Positions 1 to 11,596 of a DNA stretch of 11,596 bases are shown one piece after another. Every line of letters begins with the position of its first letter. Position 1 is the first letter of the stretch. Position numbers and translations under genes: made by a program. This stretch comes from Verrucomicrobiia bacterium (GTDB lineage: Bacteria; Verrucomicrobiota; Verrucomicrobiia; Opitutales; Opitutaceae), in the NCBI GenBank assembly GCA_030424825.1, contig JAUHWE010000081.1, positions 1 to 11,596 of the forward strand, read 5' to 3'. Below the pieces are notes generated by a model. It was not told where the DNA came from. It saw only the letters and a list, made by a program, of their open reading frames with translations, and did not search any database.

Positions 1-600
1 CCCTATGAGCCCCTCCTCTCCCGCGTGCGGGTTGAGGCCACACACTCCGATTCGTGGATTGCTGATTTCCAGCCGTTTCGCCAAGTTATTGGCCCGGTCA
101 ATGGCCATTGCCAAGCAAGATTCAGTGAGGTGATAGGCGACCGTAGCCAGAGGAATATGCCAGGTAGCCAGAACCACCATCAATCGCTCTCCCACAAACG
201 CCATGGTGGGATCCCCTCCCCAGTGACTGGCAAAAAACTCTGTCTGGCCCGGATGTGAAAAACCAACCTCCACGCAACGCGCCTTGGAAATAGGCCCTGT
301 CACCACCCCATCGAAATCCCCAACTCCACAGCCTCTCGCTGCCTGTTCCATAGCCTCCAAAGCGATTTTGGAACTTTCATGGGTGGGTTTGCCCGGAACA
401 CAATGAGAACCCGATAAACCAACGGCCAGTGAGCCCAACTCTACCGGAGATTGAGCCTTTACTTCATTAATCCAATCTTGAGGTCCAATCAATGTAAACT
501 GAGCGTCCTCTTCCAGCGGGACGGAAAAGCACTTTTTGACCAATTCAGGTCCAACTCCTGCCGGATCGCCACAGGTAATCGCTATTCTTGGTGTTCTCAT
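1..600 (-). CDS. pdxA: 4-hydroxythreonine-4-phosphate dehydrogenase PdxA (partial, 3' end beyond the left edge)
   Basis: This gene makes the NAD-dependent dehydrogenase of the DXP-dependent pyridoxal phosphate pathway, which oxidises 4-phosphohydroxy-L-threonine in the cytoplasm. The minus strand is open from an ATG at 600 to base 1, giving 200 codons of a family usually near 330 residues. Visible motifs are GDPAGVGPE (residues 11-19), VTGPISK (100-106), HPGQTEF (116-122), WHIPLATV (147-154) and GLNPHAGEEGL (188-198). H148 and H192 match two of the three metal-binding histidines; the third would lie beyond the edge. Residue 119 is Gln where the usual motif is GHTE. No Shine-Dalgarno sequence precedes the ATG, which follows a T-rich stretch. 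A weak promoter-like pair, TTGCCT (718-713) and TATGAC (696-691) with 16 bases between, lies upstream but is not convincing. The gene is last in a co-directional series with aroB. The family call is certain; only completeness is unknown. Confidence 0.95.
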   Translation of the reverse strand, partial: MRTPRIAITCGDPAGVGPELVKKCFSVPLEEDAQFTLIGPQDWINEVKAQSPVELGSLAVGLSGSHCVPGKPTHESSKIALEAMEQAARGCGVGDFDGVVTGPISKARCVEVGFSHPGQTEFFASHWGGDPTMAFVGERLMVVLATWHIPLATVAYHLTESCLAMAIDRANNLAKRLEISNPRIGVCGLNPHAGEEGLIG

Positions 601-723
601 AAAAAAAGTGCGGTCATCGCTATATCGTCTCGAAGCGGGAATTCCTTGGTCTAATAGGGCATTTCTAATAATTCTCGGAACACAATTAAGGTCATAGGAT
701 GCTTCCAGACAAAGGCAACTAAT

Positions 724-825
724 TCAGTACCGAGTAACCATTCCACAATTACGCTTTATAGCTTTAGATGCTATTTCGACTGCGTCCCGGAACCACTGAA
801 GGTTAAACCATGCTAAATCCTTCAT
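724..825 (-). CDS. Possible small protein of 33 residues
   Basis: A short minus-strand frame starts with ATG at 825, seven bases after the stop of the 197-residue gene, and ends with TGA at 724. It begins MKDLAWFNLQWF and ends with a basic stretch containing KAIKRNCGMVTRY. It is rich in aromatic residues at the N-terminus and in Lys/Arg at the C-terminus, and the middle could form an amphipathic helix. TTGAAG lies directly before the ATG, too close to be a good ribosome binding site. It fills much of the 232-base gap before pdxA and has the same direction as its neighbours. I do not recognise it. It may be a real small protein, a leader peptide, a remnant or chance. Confidence 0.25.
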   Translation of the reverse strand: MKDLAWFNLQWFRDAVEIASKAIKRNCGMVTRY

Positions 826-832
826 CTTCAAT

Positions 833-1426
833 TCAGGCCAGGAAGTTCATTTGGGAATCTTTTACCAAGTCGAAGGTTTTCAAGGTACGAATGAGCTGAA
901 GCAAGTTTGAACCCGGGTAGACATTCCGCGTATCTACCCGGTCGATAATATCGAGCAGAATCGATTTGAATGACAGGATTCCGTCAACGCCTCGCTCTTT
1001 GAGGGAAGAGACAATCCGGGCCCGATACACTTCCTGCGTCGGGAATGCCGGCGCCACTAGTATTTTCTTGGGGAAAGCCGGATCTCCCAGCTCTCTCCAG
1101 TTTTCAAACTCGAACCACTTCTCGACTTTCTTGAGGACGTTCCCTTCGACGTATTTAAGCATATCCGCTCCATTCGTCATATTGGCCAAAGCTGCCTTGT
1201 CCCCATGCCACCCTTTTACGCAAACCAAAGCGCTCTTAAGGTGCTTGAGTTCACTTGAGAAAAGCAAGAATGCAGGTTCGCGCTCCTTTTCGACGAACCG
1301 CATGTTGCGAGCGTATAAATCCACCCCGTCTTCTCTTGACCGTTTCGACTGCGAGCGCCCTTTCCGCAGGGGCATGGTCACAAAACCGTTCAGCTCCAGA
1401 TACTCTTTGACAATCAACTCATCCAT
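833..1426 (-). CDS. Conserved-looking protein of unknown function, downstream of aroB
   Basis: This is a 197-residue soluble protein with no signal peptide or membrane segment. I cannot assign a function. The first 75 residues have a possible layout of a degenerate PD-(D/E)xK nuclease-like fold: an N-terminal helix containing E8, then a basic loop (about 21-31), D36 in DGVDLYARN, and a hydrophobic strand ending VCVKGWH (68-74). The usual acidic residue two before the Lys is Cys69, so catalysis is doubtful. The remainder is helical with some strands (KKILVAPAFP, about 120-129). The ATG at 1426 is the first possible start, because an in-frame TGA lies nine bases upstream. The gene starts 39 bases after the aroB stop and points the same way, so co-transcription is likely. 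The nuclease idea is inference from pattern only. Confidence 0.7.
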   Translation of the reverse strand: MDELIVKEYLELNGFVTMPLRKGRSQSKRSREDGVDLYARNMRFVEKEREPAFLLFSSELKHLKSALVCVKGWHGDKAALANMTNGADMLKYVEGNVLKKVEKWFEFENWRELGDPAFPKKILVAPAFPTQEVYRARIVSSLKERGVDGILSFKSILLDIIDRVDTRNVYPGSNLLQLIRTLKTFDLVKDSQMNFLA

Positions 1427-1465
1427 TGACCATCAAACTCATAACTTCAGGCATATCGTATTGAA

Positions 1466-2641
1466 TCAATCAATACCTCCAACTCTACGCCAAACTTCCT
1501 CAACCCGGTCTCGCGAGACATCGTCTTTCGTAAACGCCTGCCCTATCGATTGGAGCAATACAAATCTCAGCTGGCCCGCTCTCACCTTTTTATCTTTTTG
1601 CATCGCCGAAAAAAGCGCGTCCAATTTCAGCGGACTTTTCAATCGGTCCGGAAGATGGTGGGACTTAACCACGGCGACGATTCGATCCACATCGCTTTGA
1701 TCAATGTAACCGTAGCTAGCACTCAGCTGGGCTGCAGCGGCAAACCCTACCGCGATGGCCTCTCCATGGAGGTATTCGCCATAGCCCGCGACATTCTCGA
1801 TGGCATGACCAAAGGTGTGGCCTAAATTCAACAACGCTCTCCCGCCCGACTGGGTGAGCTCCTTTTCGTCCGCATTCACGACATCGGCCTTGGTCTGGCA
1901 ATTTCTCTTCACGACCTCACCCAATCGCTCGTCGCTCCAACTCAGCAGCGGTTGTGCCTCGAGGAGCTCAAATAGTTCCGCATCCGCCAGCATACCGTAT
2001 TTCATTACTTCTGCCATACCCGCCGAGAACTCGCGTGCGGGGAGCGACCCAAGCAGATTCAAGTCTTCATACACAGCGATCGGCTGATGAAAGGCTCCCA
2101 CCAAGTTTTTGCCAGCCGGAATATTTATCCCAGTCTTGCCACCCACAGAGCTATCGACCATGGAAAGCAGTGTAGTAGGAACTTGGATAAATCGAATCCC
2201 TCGAAGCCACGAAGCAGCGGCATACCCGGTAAGATCTCCGATCACGCCACCCCCCACAGCAACAGCCACTCCCCCTCGATCTAGACCGTGAGAAGCAAAG
2301 AAGTGCAATGCCTGTTCAAACTGAGCAATGCTTTTGCTGGTCTCTCCCGAGGGAATCTCGAGGATTGGCAGATCACCCAAGCTGGCCTCAAAGAAGCCGG
2401 ACAACGCAGACCGGACCGAAGCATCGGTAACGACAGCCACTTTCGAACCCGAACGCTTCAGCTCTTCGATCTCCTTCTTCAGGGCCGATTCAAGCCCCCT
2501 ACCGATGTGGATGGGATAGGATTCCTTGGGTGTGGTAACCTCTATCCTTGTAGTATTGGAAAGGTGTGAATTCAAAATCAGGGAGCGTTGCGGACTAGTT
2601 GACGGAGACAAAATTCGCGAAACTGGTATCCTTCTCGCCAA
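1466..2641 (-). CDS. aroB: 3-dehydroquinate synthase AroB
   Basis: AroB converts DAHP to 3-dehydroquinate, the second step of the shikimate pathway, using NAD and a divalent metal in the cytoplasm. Signature segments are AVGGGVIGDLTGYAA, PTTLLSMVDSSVGGKTGIN, KNLVGAFHQP, SAGMAEVMKYG, NLGHTFGHAIE and LHGEAIAVG. The Glu of AGMAEVMKYG and the His residues of the FGHAIE and LHGEA motifs are the expected metal ligands. The start is uncertain. There is no ATG near the N-terminus. TTG at 2641 gives 391 residues and has GGAG ten bases upstream, but overlaps the preceding gene by 47 bases. TTG at 2575 gives 369 residues, nearer the family length, and removes the overlap, but has no Shine-Dalgarno. Family similarity begins only at about residue 33 (IEVTTPKESYPI), so the first 22 or more residues may be untranslated. 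It sits in a likely operon with the genes on either side. Confidence 0.96.
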   Translation of the reverse strand: MARRIPVSRILSPSTSPQRSLILNSHLSNTTRIEVTTPKESYPIHIGRGLESALKKEIEELKRSGSKVAVVTDASVRSALSGFFEASLGDLPILEIPSGETSKSIAQFEQALHFFASHGLDRGGVAVAVGGGVIGDLTGYAAASWLRGIRFIQVPTTLLSMVDSSVGGKTGINIPAGKNLVGAFHQPIAVYEDLNLLGSLPAREFSAGMAEVMKYGMLADAELFELLEAQPLLSWSDERLGEVVKRNCQTKADVVNADEKELTQSGGRALLNLGHTFGHAIENVAGYGEYLHGEAIAVGFAAAAQLSASYGYIDQSDVDRIVAVVKSHHLPDRLKSPLKLDALFSAMQKDKKVRAGQLRFVLLQSIGQAFTKDDVSRDRVEEVWRRVGGID

Positions 2642-3674
2642 GACCGAGCTGCTCCGAGTAAGCCAATATCTTCAATTCCTGCGGGAGTGGCGCAAATCCA
2701 TTTTTCGTACGATACTCGTTGATTCTCTCACGCATCAAGGAGTCTAGAAGCACTGGGTTGTCTGAAAGCATAACAACCGGTTCGGAAACGGTGTACATCG
2801 AGTTGAAAATCGGGCCGCCCACATACTGAAAACGCTGCAGGCTCGCGATGTTCAGAGCCCACGTCTCACGCAATTCAGGCACCGCGCCCATTTCTGCCAC
2901 CGCAACTGGAGCGGAAGCCGGGCTTCTGAGAAAACGCGTCGTGTTACTCGCATTCCACATGGTGGCATTCATCAGAGCCCCGTTAACTCCCAAAGTCGGG
3001 TGGTCTGAGTAGCACGGCAGATTAATCCAGAAATCGACTTCGTGCATTAAAGGCATAGGCAAATAGCTCTTCCGCTCGTTGGCATCGTCGTCCTTTTCGC
3101 CGATCGCGTTTTCTTTGTCTATGTTGATCCAGTACTGAGCCGACTTCGCGGGTAGCGGGCTGTCATAGAACCATTTCGCATCGTAATACTCCCCTGAATC
3201 GAGCGAACGCACGAACACTTGGTTAAAGTACATCGATCTTTCACTGAGAGGGGGCAGAAAGCCGGATTCCCGAAGCATTCGCCCGTTGAGGCCAATAATG
3301 AAAATATCCGAACGCTTGTAGCCCCGCGCTAGGAGCGACTGAACAACGGCCTCGACCAGCGCCTCCGGAGTGCTCAAACCCGGTCCTGATTCGCTGTACA
3401 CCTTAAGCCCTACTTTTCCCTTGCTGCCTGGTTTGAACGACACCTTTTGCGATCGTTCGAAAATGCCTAGCAAATTTTCCACCGCCACAGTGTAACTGGA
3501 AAGCCCGAAATCCTGCAGTTGAAAATTGAAAACCCGATTTGAAGGTTCTGGCTTTTCCTGGAACTCACCAATCAGATTCTGCCCTCTCGCCTGGTCTAGC
3601 AATAAGCCCCCAACGAATATCGACACGAGAATTAACTCGCGCTTCAGAAAGTGTAGAACTCTATTGGTGTACAT
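2595..3674 (-). CDS. DUF362-like protein with N-terminal signal or anchor sequence
   Basis: This is a 359-residue protein. Residues 1-31 have a basic start (KR at 11-12) followed by a hydrophobic stretch (LILVSIFVGGLLL, 14-26) and a possible cleavage region near QARGQ, so it is probably exported or anchored. The rest resembles DUF362 in order of motifs: VEAVVQSLLARGYKRSDIFIIG (about 107-128) for the usual segment ending in VGD, INLPCYSDHPTLGVNGAL (about 217-234) for the INVPKLKTH...TGALKN motif, and a C-terminal SEPVVMLSDNP segment near residue 300 like the DPVAVD motif. Some DUF362 proteins carry ferredoxin cysteines; this one shows no such cluster. The biochemical role of the family is not established. 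The ATG at 3674 has no Shine-Dalgarno; TATATT (3706-3701) is close upstream. It is the first gene of the unit leading into aroB. The family call rests on remembered motifs. Confidence 0.55.
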   Translation of the reverse strand: MYTNRVLHFLKRELILVSIFVGGLLLDQARGQNLIGEFQEKPEPSNRVFNFQLQDFGLSSYTVAVENLLGIFERSQKVSFKPGSKGKVGLKVYSESGPGLSTPEALVEAVVQSLLARGYKRSDIFIIGLNGRMLRESGFLPPLSERSMYFNQVFVRSLDSGEYYDAKWFYDSPLPAKSAQYWINIDKENAIGEKDDDANERKSYLPMPLMHEVDFWINLPCYSDHPTLGVNGALMNATMWNASNTTRFLRSPASAPVAVAEMGAVPELRETWALNIASLQRFQYVGGPIFNSMYTVSEPVVMLSDNPVLLDSLMRERINEYRTKNGFAPLPQELKILAYSEQLGLGEKDTSFANFVSVN

Positions 3675-3916
3675 CAGCGATTTTAGGGCGTAGAACAGAC
3701 AATATAACGAGCCAAGGTTGCAAAATATTTAGAGAATCATCAAGCTTTAGGCGGCGTTGCTTGACAGGACTCACATGGAACGCTCGGATTCGCCCCTATC
3801 GAACCGCACAATTAGTTTGTAAAACGCAATCCTAAAGACCTAAAAGTTAGAACCCGACCAAAATAGAGAATGGGGAATTTTTAGTCTAAAGACCCATTTG
3901 CCGTTCTCTTATATAA
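3675..3916. promoter_or_regulatory. Divergent intergenic region between the aroB and dnaG-rpoD units
   Basis: These 242 bases separate two divergent gene sets and should carry promoters for both. The plus strand has a perfect TTGACA at 3761-3766, but 17 bases on the sequence is TCGGAT, a poor -10 box, so this promoter is only a candidate. A nine-base direct repeat, CTAAAGACC, occurs at 3832-3840 and 3886-3894, near the start of the plus-strand unit. CTAA-AAG-TTAG at 3840-3850 is a short inverted repeat. No coding frame or terminator is evident. The regulatory role is inferred from gene orientation. Confidence 0.4.
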
Positions 3917-5443
3917 ATGCACACGTCTCATCCATTCGCCCAGCGCCTTTCTCAAATCGCGATCATCGCGGTTGCTTTAACGATCTTGTCCGGGTGCGCG
4001 AATCGCGAAGAGCGTATCAACCGAGCCCTCAACCAGGCCGACCAGGCCCGACAGAGAAACGAAACCTCGGAAGCTCTGAAAATCCTTGGGAAGGCGGCTC
4101 TGAAGAATCCTGACAGTGCCGCGCTCCTGGAGGCATTGGGGCACACCCAGCTGGAAGACAACGATCTCCAGTCCGCAATTAAGACCTATACCAAGACCAT
4201 TGAACTCGATCCGGGAAGAGAACGCCTTTGGGTAAATATCGCCGAATTGAACAATCGCCTGGGTGAAAAACTCGCTGCCGCACAAGCTCTAGAAAACTAT
4301 CTCGAAGGCTTTCCGGACGACTTTCTGGCCTGGAAGAACTACGCCACCCTGCAGGAAGAGCGTGGCGATCTTAATGCGGCCATCAAAGCCAATTTGGAGT
4401 GGAACCGCATCCGGCCTTCGGCAGGTCCCGCACTAAAGCTGGGATACTTGTTCAATAAAATGGGCAATCCACCTCAAGCCCGTTCCTGGATTTCGCAAGC
4501 AGCGGCCTACGTCAATGATCCTGGAGCCAAAGACGCGCTAGCCGCACTGATCGAACTCGAAATCGGCCTGCAGCAATACATGCCGGCCTCTACCTGGCTA
4601 GACCAGTATGATTCGCGTTATGGGAAAGCATCCACCGATCCTCGAATTTTGAAAGCTCGTGAAACGATCGGAAAATGGAGACAGGCACAGAAGGACATCG
4701 CGGAAGCCGCCGCCGAGATTGAACGAAAACGCAAGCAGCTCGAAGAGCAAACTCTAGAGGCTCGCCTTCAGGAAGAAAAGGCCCGGCGGGAACGTGAAGC
4801 CTTAATTGCCCAACAAACCCAGACAGCGGAAGCCGCCGCCAACAACGATCCCACAATAGTCGATGAAAGCCTGACCATCGTCGATGAAACCGAGCCTGAA
4901 CCTGAGTCCGTCGCTGATTCGGAACTCGTAGAAAAGCCACCTTTGGCACTCGTTGAAACCGAAGACTCCCCTACCTTGCCGGTCGTCACGGAAGTCGATT
5001 ACCTCGAGGCAGCTCGTTCGGCAGTGGATCGTTCTGATTTGATGGAAGCCATCGATCTTTACTGGCGAGCATTGGGGCCGGGATCCGAGAACCCTGTCAT
5101 TTGGTATGAACTCGGAAAAGTTTACATGGAGAACCGCAACTGGCTCGATGCAGAAGCGTGCATACTGGAAGCCAAACGGCGGGATCCAAGATCTCCCGCC
5201 ATCGCAAGCGCCTACCTGACCATTACTGCCCAAACGCAAACGCCTTCCAAAGCAGTTCGCGAGGCGGAAGCGCTCGTCAATCTGTTTCCAAGAGAAGCGT
5301 CCGTTTTGCTCGCCTACGCCCGTTTGCTGAAAAAGGCGAATGCCCCACGATCAAGAATTACAGAAGCATACGATGACTTTTTGAGCCATGCGGCTCCAGG
5401 TTCGGAAGGAATCGAAGAGGCGAACGCCTACTTGGGTCGATAG
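3917..5443 (+). CDS. TPR-repeat lipoprotein upstream of dnaG
   Basis: This is a 508-residue protein likely anchored by a lipid in a membrane. Residues 1-27 form a lipoprotein signal: hydrophobic stretch IAIIAVALTIL, then a lipobox LSGC with the modified Cys at 27. TPR-like helical repeats follow at about 45-190 (for example ALLEALGHTQLEDNDLQSA and AWKNYATLQEERGDLNAAI). Residues about 259-300 are a charged coiled coil (EIERKRKQLEEQ). An acidic, Pro-containing linker at about 308-355 includes IVDES and IVDET in tandem. A second TPR block lies at about 360-440 (VIWYELGKVYMENRNWLDA). TPRs suggest protein-protein scaffolding; the partner is unknown. It starts at ATG 3917 without a Shine-Dalgarno and ends 21 bases before dnaG, so it is likely co-transcribed with dnaG and rpoD. 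A link to replication or cell-envelope assembly would be speculation. Confidence 0.85.
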   Translation: MHTSHPFAQRLSQIAIIAVALTILSGCANREERINRALNQADQARQRNETSEALKILGKAALKNPDSAALLEALGHTQLEDNDLQSAIKTYTKTIELDPGRERLWVNIAELNNRLGEKLAAAQALENYLEGFPDDFLAWKNYATLQEERGDLNAAIKANLEWNRIRPSAGPALKLGYLFNKMGNPPQARSWISQAAAYVNDPGAKDALAALIELEIGLQQYMPASTWLDQYDSRYGKASTDPRILKARETIGKWRQAQKDIAEAAAEIERKRKQLEEQTLEARLQEEKARREREALIAQQTQTAEAAANNDPTIVDESLTIVDETEPEPESVADSELVEKPPLALVETEDSPTLPVVTEVDYLEAARSAVDRSDLMEAIDLYWRALGPGSENPVIWYELGKVYMENRNWLDAEACILEAKRRDPRSPAIASAYLTITAQTQTPSKAVREAEALVNLFPREASVLLAYARLLKKANAPRSRITEAYDDFLSHAAPGSEGIEEANAYLGR

Positions 5444-5464
5444 CATCCTCCCTTTCTTCGACTC

Positions 5465-7300
5465 ATGCCAGCGATTAAGCCGAGCAGTATTCGCGATCTC
5501 AAAGACCGCATTGGAATCTACGACGTTGTATCTCGCGAGGTCTCGCTGAAAAGAGCGGGATCCAATTACAAAGGGCTGAGTCCCTTCACCAACGAGAAGA
5601 CGCCTTCATTTTTCATCTCACCCGACAAAGGGATCTACAAGTGCTTCTCTACCGGAAACGCGGGCGACATAATCAGCTTTGTGATGGAAACCGAACGCCT
5701 CAATTTTGTAGAGGCAGTGGAGGAATTGGCCAAGCGGTTCAATATCGAGCTTGAGTACGAGGAAGGAGGACGACCTCGCGAAGACCGCACGTTGCGCCAA
5801 GACCTCTTCGATCTTCACGAATTCGTTGCCGATTACTATCATGAGGCCTTCCACGCGTCCGATGAGGGTGGGAATTGGATTCGCGACTATTGGACTCGAA
5901 CACGCCAGTTCGACCTATCCGTGGCCGACGAGTTCAAAATAGGATTCGCGCCGCAGTCCGGCCTCGAACTGGGCCGTCGGGTTACCCAAAAAGGATTCTC
6001 CAGAGAGGCGATCGAAGCCTGCGGGCTTTTCTACACACGGCAGGGAGTCAATCCAGCCACCATGGGCTACCGTTTCCGCGGGCGACTCATGATTCCCATT
6101 CGCGACCACCAAGGCCGGATTACCGCCTTTACTGCCAGGCAACTGGAGCTCACGCCCGAGGACGATCCCAGCAGGGAGGCCAAGTACGTCAATTCACCCG
6201 AAACACCGATTTTCAACAAGGGTTCGCTTCTATTTAATATGGATAGGGCCCGGATGGAAGTGGATCCAGACACGCCTTTCGTCATGGTGGAGGGTCAACT
6301 CGACGCCATTCGTTGCTGGAGCGTAGGGCTCAAAGGCGCCGTCGCTCCTCAGGGAACCGGGATAACGGAAAACCAGCTGCGACTAATGAAACGGTACGAA
6401 CCCCGAGTTCGCTGTCTCCTGGACGGCGACCGGGCGGGTCAGCAGGCAGCCCTTCGGATGTTGCCACTCGCGCTCGCCCAGAGCGTGGAGATTACATTCA
6501 TTCCTCTAAACGAAGGGGAAGACCCAGATGACCTCCTTCGCGACGGAGGGGTCGAGGTCCTCGATTCGCTTCTTGAGCGCGAGACTGATGCAATCGCGTT
6601 TGCCGCCAGTTCCATCGCCCCCAGCAAAGAATCTCTCACCCCCCAAGCGAAATCGAAAGCCGCCTCAGAACTCTTCCAAATCATCTCCAAAGCCGATTCG
6701 GAGACGACTCAAATCGAGTTTGTAAAGCAAGTTGCCTACGAATTGGACATCGACCCCTCCGCTGCGATTAGAGACTACCGTAGATTCTCCAGCAATCAAG
6801 ATGCGTCTAGGCGGCCTGCGCAGACGGAGAAGAGTGTCCAGATTGAACCAATTGCCCGTAAGAATGTCCACACGGTTGAACGGGACTTGTTAGGGCTTTG
6901 CTTGAATGAAGAGGGAATCGGTTACCGGATCGCGCAAATTATCGACGAGCAATGGATCGACACCAGGACTTCGGAAGGAGAACTGCTCAACCTTGTCTTG
7001 AATGCTTTCCTCCACGACATGTGGAATGGACCTGATTCTCTTAACGATCAGCTTGAAAAAACCGAACTAAAGAACCTAGCAATCGACCTCATTTTCCAAA
7101 AACCCGAGTACGACAATCCCGAACGCCTTGCAGAGGAAGCGATTAAACGCCTCGTGACCAATTTCGCAGAACAAAAGATAAAGAAGATAAAACTTGAAAT
7201 TGCCCAAAAACAATCTGAACAAGACCCTGCTTTAATCTCTCTATTTGACGAAATTGTAAAATTACAGAATATTAAGGGCAACCCGCCAAAACTCGAGTAG
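5465..7300 (+). CDS. dnaG: DNA primase DnaG lacking the canonical zinc ligands
   Basis: DnaG makes RNA primers for chromosome replication, working with DnaB helicase. The 611-residue length is normal. Residues 1-100 form the zinc-binding-type domain, with SPFTNEKTPSF (39-49) and KCFSTGNAGD (59-68). The usual CHC2 ligands correspond to S39, T42, C60 and T63, so only one of four remains. The catalytic core follows. Its TOPRIM motifs are VEGQLDAI with E276 and LLDGDRAGQQAA with D320 and D322, all metal-binding acids intact. The C-terminal part (about 470-611) is helical, as expected for the helicase-binding domain, with LLGLCLNEEGIGYRIAQII near its start. The ATG at 5465 lacks a Shine-Dalgarno. 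The gene sits 21 bases after the TPR gene and 48 before rpoD. It appears intact and functional apart from the missing zinc site. Confidence 0.97.
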   Translation: MPAIKPSSIRDLKDRIGIYDVVSREVSLKRAGSNYKGLSPFTNEKTPSFFISPDKGIYKCFSTGNAGDIISFVMETERLNFVEAVEELAKRFNIELEYEEGGRPREDRTLRQDLFDLHEFVADYYHEAFHASDEGGNWIRDYWTRTRQFDLSVADEFKIGFAPQSGLELGRRVTQKGFSREAIEACGLFYTRQGVNPATMGYRFRGRLMIPIRDHQGRITAFTARQLELTPEDDPSREAKYVNSPETPIFNKGSLLFNMDRARMEVDPDTPFVMVEGQLDAIRCWSVGLKGAVAPQGTGITENQLRLMKRYEPRVRCLLDGDRAGQQAALRMLPLALAQSVEITFIPLNEGEDPDDLLRDGGVEVLDSLLERETDAIAFAASSIAPSKESLTPQAKSKAASELFQIISKADSETTQIEFVKQVAYELDIDPSAAIRDYRRFSSNQDASRRPAQTEKSVQIEPIARKNVHTVERDLLGLCLNEEGIGYRIAQIIDEQWIDTRTSEGELLNLVLNAFLHDMWNGPDSLNDQLEKTELKNLAIDLIFQKPEYDNPERLAEEAIKRLVTNFAEQKIKKIKLEIAQKQSEQDPALISLFDEIVKLQNIKGNPPKLE

Positions 7301-7348
7301 CCCGATTTCCGTACCCATCTACGGTAAAACCCACGCCAAGAAAACCTT

Positions 7349-8499
7349 ATGCCACGCAAGAAAAAGAGCGACGCAGAAACCAAGCAAGGACTGTCTAAAC
7401 ATCAAGTAAACGAACGCATTCGCTACCTGATTCGGCAGTCCAAAGAACAGGGCTATCTCACCTACAGCGATATCAATACGGCGTTGCCGGACGGAGTGGA
7501 CCGTCAGGACGATATCGATAATATCATCTCGATTCTGCAAAACCTGGAGATCGACATCCTCGATCCCGATGAAGTCGATTCGTTCAAGGCCAAACAGGAA
7601 GAACAGGAAGAAGCCCAAACCAAGACCAGTCAGCACGATATACTGGACGATCCCGTTCGCATGTATCTCAAGCAGATGGGGCAAGTCCCCCTTTTGACCC
7701 GAGAACAGGAAGTTGAAATATCCAAGCGAATCGAAAGCGCGGAACTCAAAGCGCAGGAAGCCCTCTTTTCCGTGGGAATCGCTTCCGACTTCACTCTGAA
7801 CCTCGCTGAAAAGCTCTTCAATCGTGAAGAGCGATTCGACCGAATCGTTATCGATAAAAAAATCGAGAACCGGGAAACCTACTTCCAAGCCCTTCCCATT
7901 CTGATCGAGCGTTCCCGCAAAACGCACGAACGCATGCTCAAGACTTGGTCCGAGCTACGAGCGGAAAAGGACCAGGAAAAACGAAAGAAAATCCGCTCCA
8001 AGTTCAGAAAACAGGAGAACACATTGCGGGCCAACTTCTCGAAGTTCTTTTTTAAGCTGAAAGTATTCGAAGAGCATATCGACGAGGTTATCAGCAAGGA
8101 TCTCAGCCGGATCAGTCAGATTAATCGGGATTTGGAACGGGTGAAAAAGCCCAAGACGGCCAGAGATGCCCAGCTCGATGCCAAAGCGCTGAAAAACGAA
8201 TTGGAGGAAATCCACGACAAGCATCGCATTGACCCCGAAAAGCTCGTGAGATTGATAGGCGACGTTCGCATGCGCCTCCGCGAAGCCCACCAAGCGAAAA
8301 CGGAGATGGTCGAGGCCAATCTGCGTCTCGTCATTTCGATCGCTAAAAAATACACCAATCGCGGCCTCTCCTTCCTCGATTTGATTCAGGAGGGCAACAT
8401 GGGACTCATGAAAGCGGTTGAGAAATTTGAGTACCGTCGCGGATACAAATTTTCCACTTATGCGACTTGGTGGATTCGACAAGCGATCACCCGCTCGAT
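7349..8499 (+). CDS. rpoD: Principal sigma factor RpoD, truncated within region 2.4 by the junction
   Basis: This is the N-terminal part of the housekeeping sigma-70 factor, which directs RNA polymerase to promoters. Residues about 15-75 match region 1.1, [21 protein letters not shown] (starting about residue 101) is region 1.2, a charged non-conserved region follows, and regions 2.1 to early 2.4 are clear ([51 protein letters not shown]). W374, W375, Q378 and T381 match the E. coli -10-recognising residues W433, W434, Q437 and T440. After S383 the expected IADQARTIRIPVHM is absent. The frame stays open to a stop at 8722, adding 74 residues unlike any sigma factor. Regions 3 and 4, including -35 recognition, are missing. 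A cell could not rely on this copy, so the break is almost certainly a chimera point. ATG 7349 has no clear Shine-Dalgarno. Confidence 0.95.
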
Positions 8500-8501
8500 G
8501 G
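8497..8501. other. Chimeric junction between two unrelated genome fragments
   Basis: Left of this point the plus strand encodes RpoD up to the Ser of ITRS; right of it the minus strand encodes a protein kinase whose own sequence stops matching here. Two genes on opposite strands lose their remaining parts at the same base, and the style of the genes changes from Verrucomicrobiota-like to Planctomycetota-like. No inverted repeat, target-site duplication, integrase or transposase is visible on either side. The exact base is ambiguous by a few positions, because the first two bases of the expected Ile codon are also present. Confidence 0.85.
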
Positions 8502-9616
8502 TCACTGTTTTCGATGTAAACGGCCTGATGTCGTTTTTCCGGCAACTTCAAATCGATTCGCATACCACCGCCGACCTGTTCCCACTGGACGCTGGGAATG
8601 CCGTGAAAAGCTTCGTAGACCAGCGAGTGCATATCGCGTGTGGACCCCAGTACGGCCTGCAGCAATTGCGACACGGCGGCTCCGTCACGAGGGCGGTTTT
8701 CTGGTGCTCGGGCCAGCATTAGGCTGACGGCTTCTGCCATTTCGAGCGGGATGTCAGGATTGTGTCGGCGCACGCCCTTGTATTCGCCCGCAAGAATTGA
8801 GGCCATCAGCGACGTCATCGTCTCGCCTTCGAAGGGATAGCGGCCGGTCAGCATCAGGTAATAACAGACGCCCAATGCGAAGACATCGCTGGCGGGTGAG
8901 GCTTCAACGCCCTGCCATAATTCGGCCGCCATAAAATGGGGCGTGCCAGCAAGCTTTGTGGTTCCGCCATTCGAAGAACGGATTTGTTTGGCCAGGCCGA
9001 AATCGGCGATTTTCGGGTGACCTGCAGGAGTGACCAGCACGTTGTCGGGTTTGAGGTCGCGATGCACAATTCCCATGCGGTGAGCCATCGCTAAACCTTC
9101 GGCGATGCCAACAACCATTTGTGTGGCTCGCAATGGTCCGATACCGCCACTGCTGTCGATCTCTTTCTGGAGTGACTGCCCGGGCACAAATTCCATTTCA
9201 AGGAAATGATGAGGGCCCGTTTTGCCGATTGCATGCGTCGTCACAATGTTGGGATGTACCAACGCAGCGGCCGCGCGGCCTTCGTTCTCAAACCTCGCGA
9301 CGTAATCGATGCTGCGAGACGCCTGTCGCGGCGAAAGAACTTTTAACGCAACCTGCCGATCCAGATTTTGGTTCGTGGCGAGGTAGACAACTCCCATCCC
9401 GCCACGGCCCAGCATGTTTCGACAGGCGTAGATGTGGACGACCTGACCGTCGAGCAGCACTTCGTCCAATTCGATATCTGTCGACGATGCACTGTCGCCG
9501 TCTTCCGGCACCAGCACGGTGTCCATCGACTGAGCCGGGAGCATGCCACACCGAGGACATTTCCCATCGTCGTTGGGGAAGGCCTCATTGCATCCGGGAC
9601 AATAAAGTTCTGGCAC
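8500..9616 (-). CDS. Hanks-type serine/threonine protein kinase with N-terminal zinc ribbon (C-terminus lost at the junction)
   Basis: This kinase would phosphorylate Ser/Thr on unknown partners. The start is GTG at 9616, preceded by GAGGGA as ribosome binding site. Residues 1-25 form a zinc ribbon (C6, C9, C20, C23). The kinase domain spans about 60-330: Gly-rich loop GRGGMGVVY (70-78), K92 in VALK, probable alpha-C Glu E112, catalytic HRDLKPDNV (185-193, D187), DFG at 205-207, activation segment GTPHF (224-228). The APE motif is AAE (230-232). No transmembrane helix is seen in the part present. Residues about 345-372 begin another domain ([18 protein letters not shown]). After D372 the frame continues to a stop at 7955, but that part is the antisense of rpoD and not real kinase. 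Architecture and the neighbouring TPR gene suggest Planctomycetota. It is divergent from the sulfotransferase. Confidence 0.92.
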
Positions 9617-9653
9617 GGCGGTTCAGTTCCCTCGAAAAAGTATCAATCGTTAG

Positions 9654-9682
9654 ATTATAGTGGTTTGCGTCGCGGAACAGGT
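9654..9682 (-). promoter_or_regulatory. Possible promoter of the kinase gene
   Basis: The minus strand carries a perfect TATAAT at 9659-9654, 37 bases upstream of the GTG start and upstream of the GAGGGA ribosome binding site. At the -35 distance the sequence is ACCTGT (9682-9677), which does not match the consensus. The candidate rests on the -10 box, its position in the divergent gap and its distance to the gene. Confidence 0.35.
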
Positions 9683-9798
9683 AGTGGCTGTTGGACTGGA
9701 ATGATCCGCGTTGGCCGCATTTCGATCTCATTCGCCGTTTCTTGCTGCCGGGTGGCGGCGAATATTGTATTTCTGAAAAATCGGCGGACAGACGATTC

Positions 9799-10446
9799 AT
9801 GTTGCAGGTCATTGGACTCGGTTATCCGCGCACCGGCACGATGTCTTTAAAGCACGCTTTAGAGGCGCTGGGCATGGGGCCATGTTACCACATGATCGAA
9901 GTCTTTCGTCGTCCGGAAGATGTCGACTTCTGGCTGGCGGCGCTGAACGCCAACGGGAACGGAACAGACTGGAATCGCGTATTCGCTGGGTTTCCGTCGA
10001 CAGCCGATTGCCCGGCGTGCTGTTTTTGGCAGCCCTTATGGAAATGCTATCCGCAAGCAAAGTATATTCTCACCGTGCGAAACGCGGACGACTGGTACGA
10101 CAGCTTTCTGTCGACCGTATACGAAGCGATGCAACACCCGGAACGGTCACCCGATGAGAACCACGCAGCAGTCCAGCGAATGGCCAAGAAGCTGATTCTG
10201 GACACCATGTTTCAGGGACGTTTTCAAGACCGTTCGTACGCGATCGACACTTACGAACGCCACAATCAGACCGTGATCGATACACTGCCGAAAGATCAGC
10301 TTCTGACGTTTAACGTGGCGGAAGGGTGGAGGCCACTGTGCGACTTTCTGGAAGTCGCCGCGCCCGACGAACCGTTTCCGCAATCGAATACACGCGAAGA
10401 ATTTCAACAGCGGTTTGCCGTCGAACCGCCGAATGCGTCACCGTAA
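9799..10446 (+). CDS. P-loop sulfotransferase family protein
   Basis: This is a PAPS-dependent sulfotransferase-like protein of 215 residues; the acceptor is unknown. The 5'-phosphosulfate-binding loop is GYPRTGTMSLKHAL (8-21). The 3'-phosphate-binding segment is LTVRNADDWYDSF (91-103), with R94 and S102 in the expected places. The layout DCPACCFWQPL (70-80) before the second strand resembles the short sulfotransferase group often called Sulfotransfer_4, as does the length. ATG 9799 is chosen because the protein then begins MLQVIGLGYPRTGT, as family members do. An upstream in-frame TTG at 9691 would add 36 residues with no family similarity. A weak GGCGGA lies before the ATG. It is divergent from the kinase and converges with the TPR gene, 25 bases apart. 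No signal peptide is seen, so action in the cytoplasm is likely. Marine planctomycetes often carry such enzymes, but the role here is not shown. Confidence 0.85.
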   Translation: MLQVIGLGYPRTGTMSLKHALEALGMGPCYHMIEVFRRPEDVDFWLAALNANGNGTDWNRVFAGFPSTADCPACCFWQPLWKCYPQAKYILTVRNADDWYDSFLSTVYEAMQHPERSPDENHAAVQRMAKKLILDTMFQGRFQDRSYAIDTYERHNQTVIDTLPKDQLLTFNVAEGWRPLCDFLEVAAPDEPFPQSNTREEFQQRFAVEPPNASP

Positions 10447-10471
10447 CGAGCCGCTTTGGGGGTGACCGCCT

Positions 10472-11596
10472 TTACGGCTTGGCTGTGGCCTTCTCGTTTT
10501 CGCCAACCTTATCCACGATTGCCTGCCAGTCCGGGTGCTGGTGTAACATCTTCAGGTCGGGGTCATCCAACAGATGTTCAAGATCGTCAAAACCGCCCTT
10601 GCGATTTGTGCAGTCCTGCAGCAATTTGATGGCGCGTTGTTCGTATTTCGCCTGCGCTTCGGTATTCGCCGCGACTTCTGACGCTCGTCCATACACGCAC
10701 GCCGTGTTGTAGATGGTGTCGCGGCGGAGCTGCGTGGTCAGGTCGGGAATTTTGACAAGCTGATCTTCGGCTTCTGCGATTCCCTGCTCGACATTGCCGA
10801 GACGTACCTGAGCGATCGCAGAAATGCTTTCAATGACGGCATCTTCCGGATTCTGTCGTGCCGCAATCTTTAAGTCCTTCATCGCTGGTTCCGGTCGGTC
10901 CGTTCTGAGATACAACGACGCTCGTGAAACGTAAAGCGACGTGTAGAAAGGATCCTTTTCCAACAGCTCGCTAATGGCCTCGATGGCTTCTTCATGCTTA
11001 CCCGCCTTACGTAGTTCGAAAATCTTTTTGAAGTCTGCCTGATACGGCGTGGAGCGGAAATACAGTCGAGTCCCATCGTCAATGCAATCGTCCGCCATGT
11101 CCGACAGTTTAAGCACCGACGAGCGATGACAGCGGTTGACGATTCGGCGGGCTTCCGGGTACGTCACATTCTTTAGTTGTTCAAGCGTCCGGGCGAAGAG
11201 ACTTTGCGTGGCGGCATCGAAACCGTCGGTGTCGTCAATATTCAGGCGGAGTCCTTCCAGAAAGTCGACCACAACTTGAATCGCTTCCGGCGCGCCGTGC
11301 CTGCTTAGCGTCGACAATGCGATGTTTTGAACTCTCATGTCTTTTTGCAGGCAGGCGGTGGCAGTTTGCAGCCAGGCCGGGTGGTTCATGCCGCTAAGAT
11401 GCCCCAACAGAAAACCGAGTTGATCGCTGCTGAGTTCGTCAACGTTTTCTGTCAGTTCTGTGATACATTGATGGTCCGCACAGCGAACAGCCGTTCGAAA
11501 TACCTGGGTGGCTGTACTGCTGGTGACGGCTTCGGTTTCGATCAGATTCAATAGCCGGTCCGCGTATTGAGTGTCCGGGTACTTGCGAATTGTTTG
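10472..11596 (-). CDS. HEAT/TPR-like repeat protein (partial, 5' end beyond the right edge)
   Basis: The minus-strand frame is open from base 11596 to a TAA at 10472, giving 374 residues of a longer protein. A TTG at 11551 exists, but coding-like sequence continues upstream of it (RKYPDTQYADRLL), so I take the gene as running off the edge. The N-terminal half is made of helical pairs that may be HEAT-like (for example VQNIALSTLSRHGAPEAIQ). The later part has TPRs: YQADFKKIFELRKAGKHEEA, TSLYVSRASLYLRTDRPEPA and AVIESISAIAQVRLGNVEQG. The last 90 residues resemble a tail common in planctomycete kinase/TPR proteins: an NTACVYGRAS segment, then DLEHLLDDPDLKMLHQHPDW. The missing N-terminus could hold a kinase or another domain. 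It faces the sulfotransferase. A scaffold role is inferred from the repeats only. Confidence 0.85.
   Translation of the reverse strand, partial: QTIRKYPDTQYADRLLNLIETEAVTSSTATQVFRTAVRCADHQCITELTENVDELSSDQLGFLLGHLSGMNHPAWLQTATACLQKDMRVQNIALSTLSRHGAPEAIQVVVDFLEGLRLNIDDTDGFDAATQSLFARTLEQLKNVTYPEARRIVNRCHRSSVLKLSDMADDCIDDGTRLYFRSTPYQADFKKIFELRKAGKHEEAIEAISELLEKDPFYTSLYVSRASLYLRTDRPEPAMKDLKIAARQNPEDAVIESISAIAQVRLGNVEQGIAEAEDQLVKIPDLTTQLRRDTIYNTACVYGRASEVAANTEAQAKYEQRAIKLLQDCTNRKGGFDDLEHLLDDPDLKMLHQHPDWQAIVDKVGENEKATAKP

Follow-up and report, generated by a model that had tools for sequence, protein, structure and literature searches.

The window analyzed here, i.e., the whole stretch of 11,596 bases, is the entire contig C528 of a draft genome that comprises 5.04 Mb in 811 contigs and was rated 89.05% complete and 5.51% contaminated. 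From these assembly figures and from its mixed content, we infer that the draft genome is a metagenome bin. Positions 1–8499 hold a segment of Opitutales (Verrucomicrobiota), as judged from Pfam families, DnaG names and collinearity with a reference genome; it carries pdxA and aroB on the minus strand and genes for a TPR protein, DnaG and the 5′ part of RpoD on the plus strand. Positions 8500–11596 are Fuerstiella-like (Planctomycetota) and encode part of a Ser/Thr protein kinase, a sulfotransferase and a fragment of a TPR-repeat protein.

We compared the left segment with G010, a genome of the same genus that consists of a single contig of 4.09 Mb. Collinear matches covered positions 2–610 (76.7% identity), 832–3315 (76.1%) and 2315–8499 (79.3%), interrupted by a gap at about 611–831. 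The 3-dehydroquinate synthase (aroB-like, 1466–2641, minus strand) was recognized by the Pfam families DHQ_synthase and DHQS_C, and the DNA primase (dnaG, 5465–7300, plus strand) by the CHC2 zinc finger, DNAG_N and Toprim families. DnaG homologues reached up to 92% identity with the window's own entry left out; the few that were named among the 120 listed were assigned to Opitutales, Opitutaceae, Puniceicoccaceae, Pelagicoccus, Verrucomicrobiia, Verrucomicrobiota and similar groups. For two long open reading frames on the minus strand (833–1426 and 2595–3674), Pfam gave nothing at E ≤ 0.001; both lie in DNA that is collinear with G010.

The 5′ part of rpoD (7349–8499, plus strand) matches Pfam Sigma70_r1_1, r1_2 and r2. 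Like Opitutales RpoD, it has regions 1.1, 1.2 and 2 up to the motif ITRS, where it is cut in region 2.4; C528 lacks regions 3 and 4, and Pfam listed neither for its rpoD frame. Codons 1–383 (7349–8497) are 85–96% identical to RpoD in ten genomes of the same genus, in which the open rpoD frame has 579–608 codons compared with 464 in the window. An RpoD match of some kind was found in all 38 genomes searched, the window's own counted. Two of these did not demonstrate an intact copy, i.e., G021 with a region-2 match only, in a 342-codon frame, and G037, whose best match falls into two frames on one contig. In this order-level relative, the two frames overlap (G037:C13:25827-26956), which suggests a frameshift or an assembly error.

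To locate the break, 19 relatives (L003–L021, the best matches from 19 of the 37 other genomes) were aligned with the window. Blastn alignments stopped at 8499 in 19/19, in agreement with the original prediction that the RpoD frame loses similarity after ITRS in region 2.4. Directly after codon 383, the window has ATG where every relative has an Ile codon (ATC, ATT or ATA) and proceeds as IADQARTIRIPVHMIE. Ungapped identity to the 19 relatives was 47–52 of 60 positions before 8499 and 11–15 of 60 after it. Right of the join, tblastx gave two short pieces, of 25 residues (L015) and 16 residues (L019), which we take as chance. The remainder of the open frame (8500–8722, plus strand) runs antisense through the kinase gene and is probably non-coding in that frame; Pfam listed no family for 8501–8722 up to a limit of E = 1. 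In all 19 relatives, rpoD was read past region 2 and runs on normally. In 16 further relatives it was read to region 2, and the open frame, taken for its size only, has 569–697 codons.

The right segment has a different source. A single collinear run with 89.5% DNA identity over 3,128 columns connects positions 8484–11596 with G042, a single-contig genome of 8.92 Mb that we identify as that of the planctomycete Fuerstiella marisgermanici; with 8500–11596 as query, the match (G042:C1:1242466-1245573, 89%) extends over positions 3–3097 of 3097. We had initially considered a Planctomycetaceae locus (L022) as right parent. Only its sulfotransferase matched, the kinase and the TPR gene did not, and the parent was therefore sought among its relatives, where G042 matched over the full length. 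Some match to 8500–11596 was present in 36 of 39 genomes around a Planctomycetaceae record, and among the matches listed only G042 covered the whole stretch. As judged from these alignments, the right parent is a relative of F. marisgermanici at about 89.5% DNA identity and not the same strain.

The kinase (8480–9616, minus strand, Pfam Pkinase) retains about 379 N-terminal residues of 460 and lacks about 80 at its C-terminus. Its part at 8500–9616 is 97% identical to the F. marisgermanici serine/threonine kinase P0003 (460 residues), of which residues 1–382 were matched at 96% and the last ~78 are absent from the window, lost at the join. The counterpart of the kinase in G042 is likewise a frame of 460 amino acids. 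We found no match to the missing C-terminus in the bin. A chimeric 529-residue kinase with a tail antisense to rpoD (P0004) is listed in the protein collection and is evidently the product of C528 itself. Both the sulfotransferase (9691–10446, plus strand; Pfam Sulfotransfer_4, E = 2.8e-65) and the TPR-repeat fragment (10472–11596, minus strand; weak TPR matches), which is cut by the contig end, lie within the collinear Fuerstiella match; the counterpart of the latter is an open reading frame of 1010 amino acids. On the left-parent side, a sulfotransferase match occurred in 2/38 genomes, i.e., in G000 itself (the window and, at 38%, contig C596) and in G006 (39%). The relative on C596 of the same bin (G000:C596:7048-7668) contains one in-frame TGA.

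Two Fuerstiella stretches flanking the matched region were searched in the bin. The 4.4 kb beyond the join, on the side of the kinase C-terminus, gave no match in a search that was run without a positive control. The 6.4 kb on the opposite side gave six matches, the best with 68% identity over 959 bases on contig C604 and the other five of 46–80 bases each. For these two flanks, we rejected the possibility that further Fuerstiella-like sequence from near the join had been binned here.

Tetranucleotide composition was compared as well. The correlation was 0.23 between the left and right segments and 0.38 between two left pieces. The Fuerstiella reference, with the matching stretch left out, correlated with the right segment at 0.39 and with the left one at 0.15 (0.08–0.15 with three 3,097-base pieces taken from it). 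Four Opitutales references gave 0.30–0.45 with the right and 0.31–0.49 with the left segment. The two halves are thus separated by the Fuerstiella reference only, whereas the Opitutales references do not discriminate.

The original prediction had RpoD and kinase similarity end at the same base. This did not hold, since RpoD similarity stops at 8499 and the kinase continues to 8480. Fuerstiella similarity starts at 8484 in blastn and at 8480 by reading frame ('HRAGDRL', minus strand), which leaves 20 nucleotides (8480–8499) that fit both parents, i.e., Q-A-I-T-R-S-(I) of RpoD in sense and R-A-G-D-R-L of the kinase in antisense direction. Of these 20 positions, the window has 17 in common with Fuerstiella and 15–18 in common with the 19 left relatives, and when read from the sequences, the differences are synonymous in the respective frame. 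Both parents probably carry this stretch, and they may share it as an exact 20-nt word, from which F. marisgermanici itself differs at three of 20 positions. Among 400,000 random pairs of 20-nt stretches drawn from L050 and L054, the highest agreement was 15/20; as the zone had been picked after it was seen, the only conclusion is that a random join would not be expected to show an overlap of this kind. Two genomes of these sizes and of uniform composition should have about 82 20-mers in common by chance, so that such words are available for joining. An overlap of 20 nucleotides is that of assembly graphs built on words of 21, and metagenome assemblers commonly use this size as their smallest word. 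There were no repeats of at least 14 nucleotides within 8000–9000 and no tRNA in the window, and integrase or transposase families were absent among the ten proteins scanned with Pfam, with the far end of the right segment, and any terminal repeat there, lying beyond the contig. For the part covered, this is in line with the earlier statement that no mobile-element signature is present.

We then looked for the missing half of rpoD in the bin. A large share of the C-terminal half of the Opitutales gene, residues 439–576 in the numbering of L003 (a relative, 577 residues), sits at positions 4–417 of C225, at one tip of this contig of 4,083 bases. The sole other match to the C-terminal query was a second sigma frame of 354 codons on C635; a region-2 match to this type of sigma factor also occurred in 28 of 37 other genomes, as counted from the listing. 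Searches with the N- and C-terminal parts led to C528, C225 and C635 only, and an intact rpoD was not found among them. From late rpoD onward, C225 (40–4083) is collinear with G003, G010 and G005 at 78–80% identity, and the frames downstream of rpoD are presumably TatA-like, MreB-like and MreC-like. Between the last left-parent base of the window and the first base of C225, about 160 bases by the relatives' coordinates remain unassembled and were not found. As C225 carries late rpoD together with the collinear downstream DNA, the gene of the bin looks broken between two contigs rather than replaced.

The tip of C225 itself deviates from the Opitutales sequence. Its first 22 codons read VLNISRHPVSLDRPVGESEDSY, whereas 19/19 relatives have IMKMAQQPISLQSPVGDGDDT(N/S) or a one-letter variant. 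The first 32 residues are up to 91% identical to sequences from Planctomycetota; in a sample of 294 genomes of this phylum, 263 gave a match at E ≤ 0.001. Within the window's own order, 96 of 103 genomes match, itself counted; among the 102 other genomes sampled the best reached 71%, and most lay at 52%–61%. Nucleotide identities were compared on the planctomycete side with ten of the best matches and on the Opitutales side with five of the 19 relatives. Positions 1–69 of C225 showed identity at 45–54 of 69 positions to the former and 40 of 69 to the latter, and positions 100–129 at 8–14 of 30 and 23–26 of 30, respectively; identity hence swaps sides across the conserved FGDFIED block. By these comparisons, about the first 70 nucleotides of C225 (L048) look like Planctomycetota-like rpoD, so that rpoD would contain another chimeric junction. 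The same Fuerstiella-like parent is an unlikely source. Among three sigma loci of F. marisgermanici that were compared with the tip, the two full-length RpoD-like genes agreed with its first 80 nucleotides at only 53 and 51 positions. A parent with 89% identity elsewhere should agree better, and a third organism would therefore be involved. No match to the tip was found in plasmids. Two foreign joins within one gene of one bin would be expected from assembly trouble in a mixed sample.

Each side of the window thus has a separate source with which it is collinear, and the switch between them is abrupt and lies inside genes that are both cut. No single genome was the best match for both sides, with Opitutales on the left and Fuerstiella on the right, and the relatives found for either parent were one-sided. 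This upholds the original prediction that an artefact joined a Verrucomicrobiota-like fragment to a Planctomycetota-like one. On this sequence comparison, we hold with great confidence that C528 is a chimeric contig of Opitutales-like DNA in its first 8.5 kb and Fuerstiella-like DNA in its last 3.1 kb. The join at 8499/8500 is almost certainly an artefact, and no biological linkage across it should be believed; dropping all such claims, as proposed before, is backed by the one-sided collinearity with two source organisms.

The contig probably arose as follows. An Opitutales and a Fuerstiella-like genome, presumably in the same sample, would by chance have shared a word of ~20 nucleotides at 8480–8499, with RpoD codons QAITRS(I) on one strand and antisense kinase codons RAGDRL on the other. 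At this word, an assembler that works with short words would have crossed from one genome to the other, a chimeric molecule in the library being the less likely route, and the product would then have been binned by its longer, Opitutales part. We favor misassembly in silico over library chimerism because of the ~20-nt overlap together with the chimeric tip of C225, which also lies in rpoD. A physical but still artificial join, made by template switching in amplification or by ligation in library preparation, is a variant of the artefact that we consider rather improbable. The overlap at the join speaks for it, and template switching likewise uses short shared sequence. However, a library chimera is a rare molecule that presumably would need to outweigh both correct continuations, and the second, different chimeric tip in rpoD indicates assembly trouble.

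A true rearrangement or horizontal transfer, in which recombination placed a Fuerstiella-like segment of at least 3.1 kb in the rpoD gene of a living Opitutales cell, seems highly improbable to us. The contig crosses the join without Ns and rpoD C-terminal DNA is present elsewhere in the bin, as such an event would allow, but this DNA lies on C225 with the collinear downstream neighborhood of rpoD, and the searches of the bin gave no housekeeping sigma gene in intact form. Moreover, the segment starts in the middle of a gene and is collinear with Fuerstiella all the way to the end of the contig, neither a repeat at the join nor a mobile-element family among the ten scanned proteins was found, and rpoD is normal in the 19 relatives read, with frames of 569–697 codons in 16 more. 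We give equally little weight to a living Opitutales subpopulation that would carry the fusion at a 20-nt microhomology together with a second, unbinned intact rpoD. A sigma factor that is truncated or fused in nature and carries a new C-terminal domain is more improbable still, to the point of being negligible: the frame stays open to 8722, yet its tail is antisense to the kinase and has no Pfam family up to E = 1, and the conserved frame at this site is that of the antisense kinase, at 97% identity.

Misassembly, which we prefer, has described counterparts. Shared words that generate chimeric contigs are an assembly failure mode treated in the part of PMC7299287 that we considered, and the background given for GUNC (PMC8201837, considered in part) regards misassemblies as relatively rare compared with mis-binning, which weighs against this reading. 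As in the interspecies chimeric contigs of short-read metagenomes covered in these portions of both papers (PMC7299287; PMC8201837), two genomes in C528 share one contig, probably joined at a short word present in both, that was binned by its longer part. In contrast, the descriptions in these portions stress related species that share sequence, whereas the parents of C528 come from different phyla and its probable shared word lies in unrelated genes of opposite coding sense.

The relevance of C528 is one of data hygiene only. The contig reports a truncated RpoD and a kinase whose C-terminal ~174 residues are a spurious tail, and it reports a false neighborhood that places Opitutales housekeeping genes beside a Fuerstiella-like kinase and sulfotransferase. 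It is also a small example of a probable misassembly whose overlap is readable from relatives of both parents.
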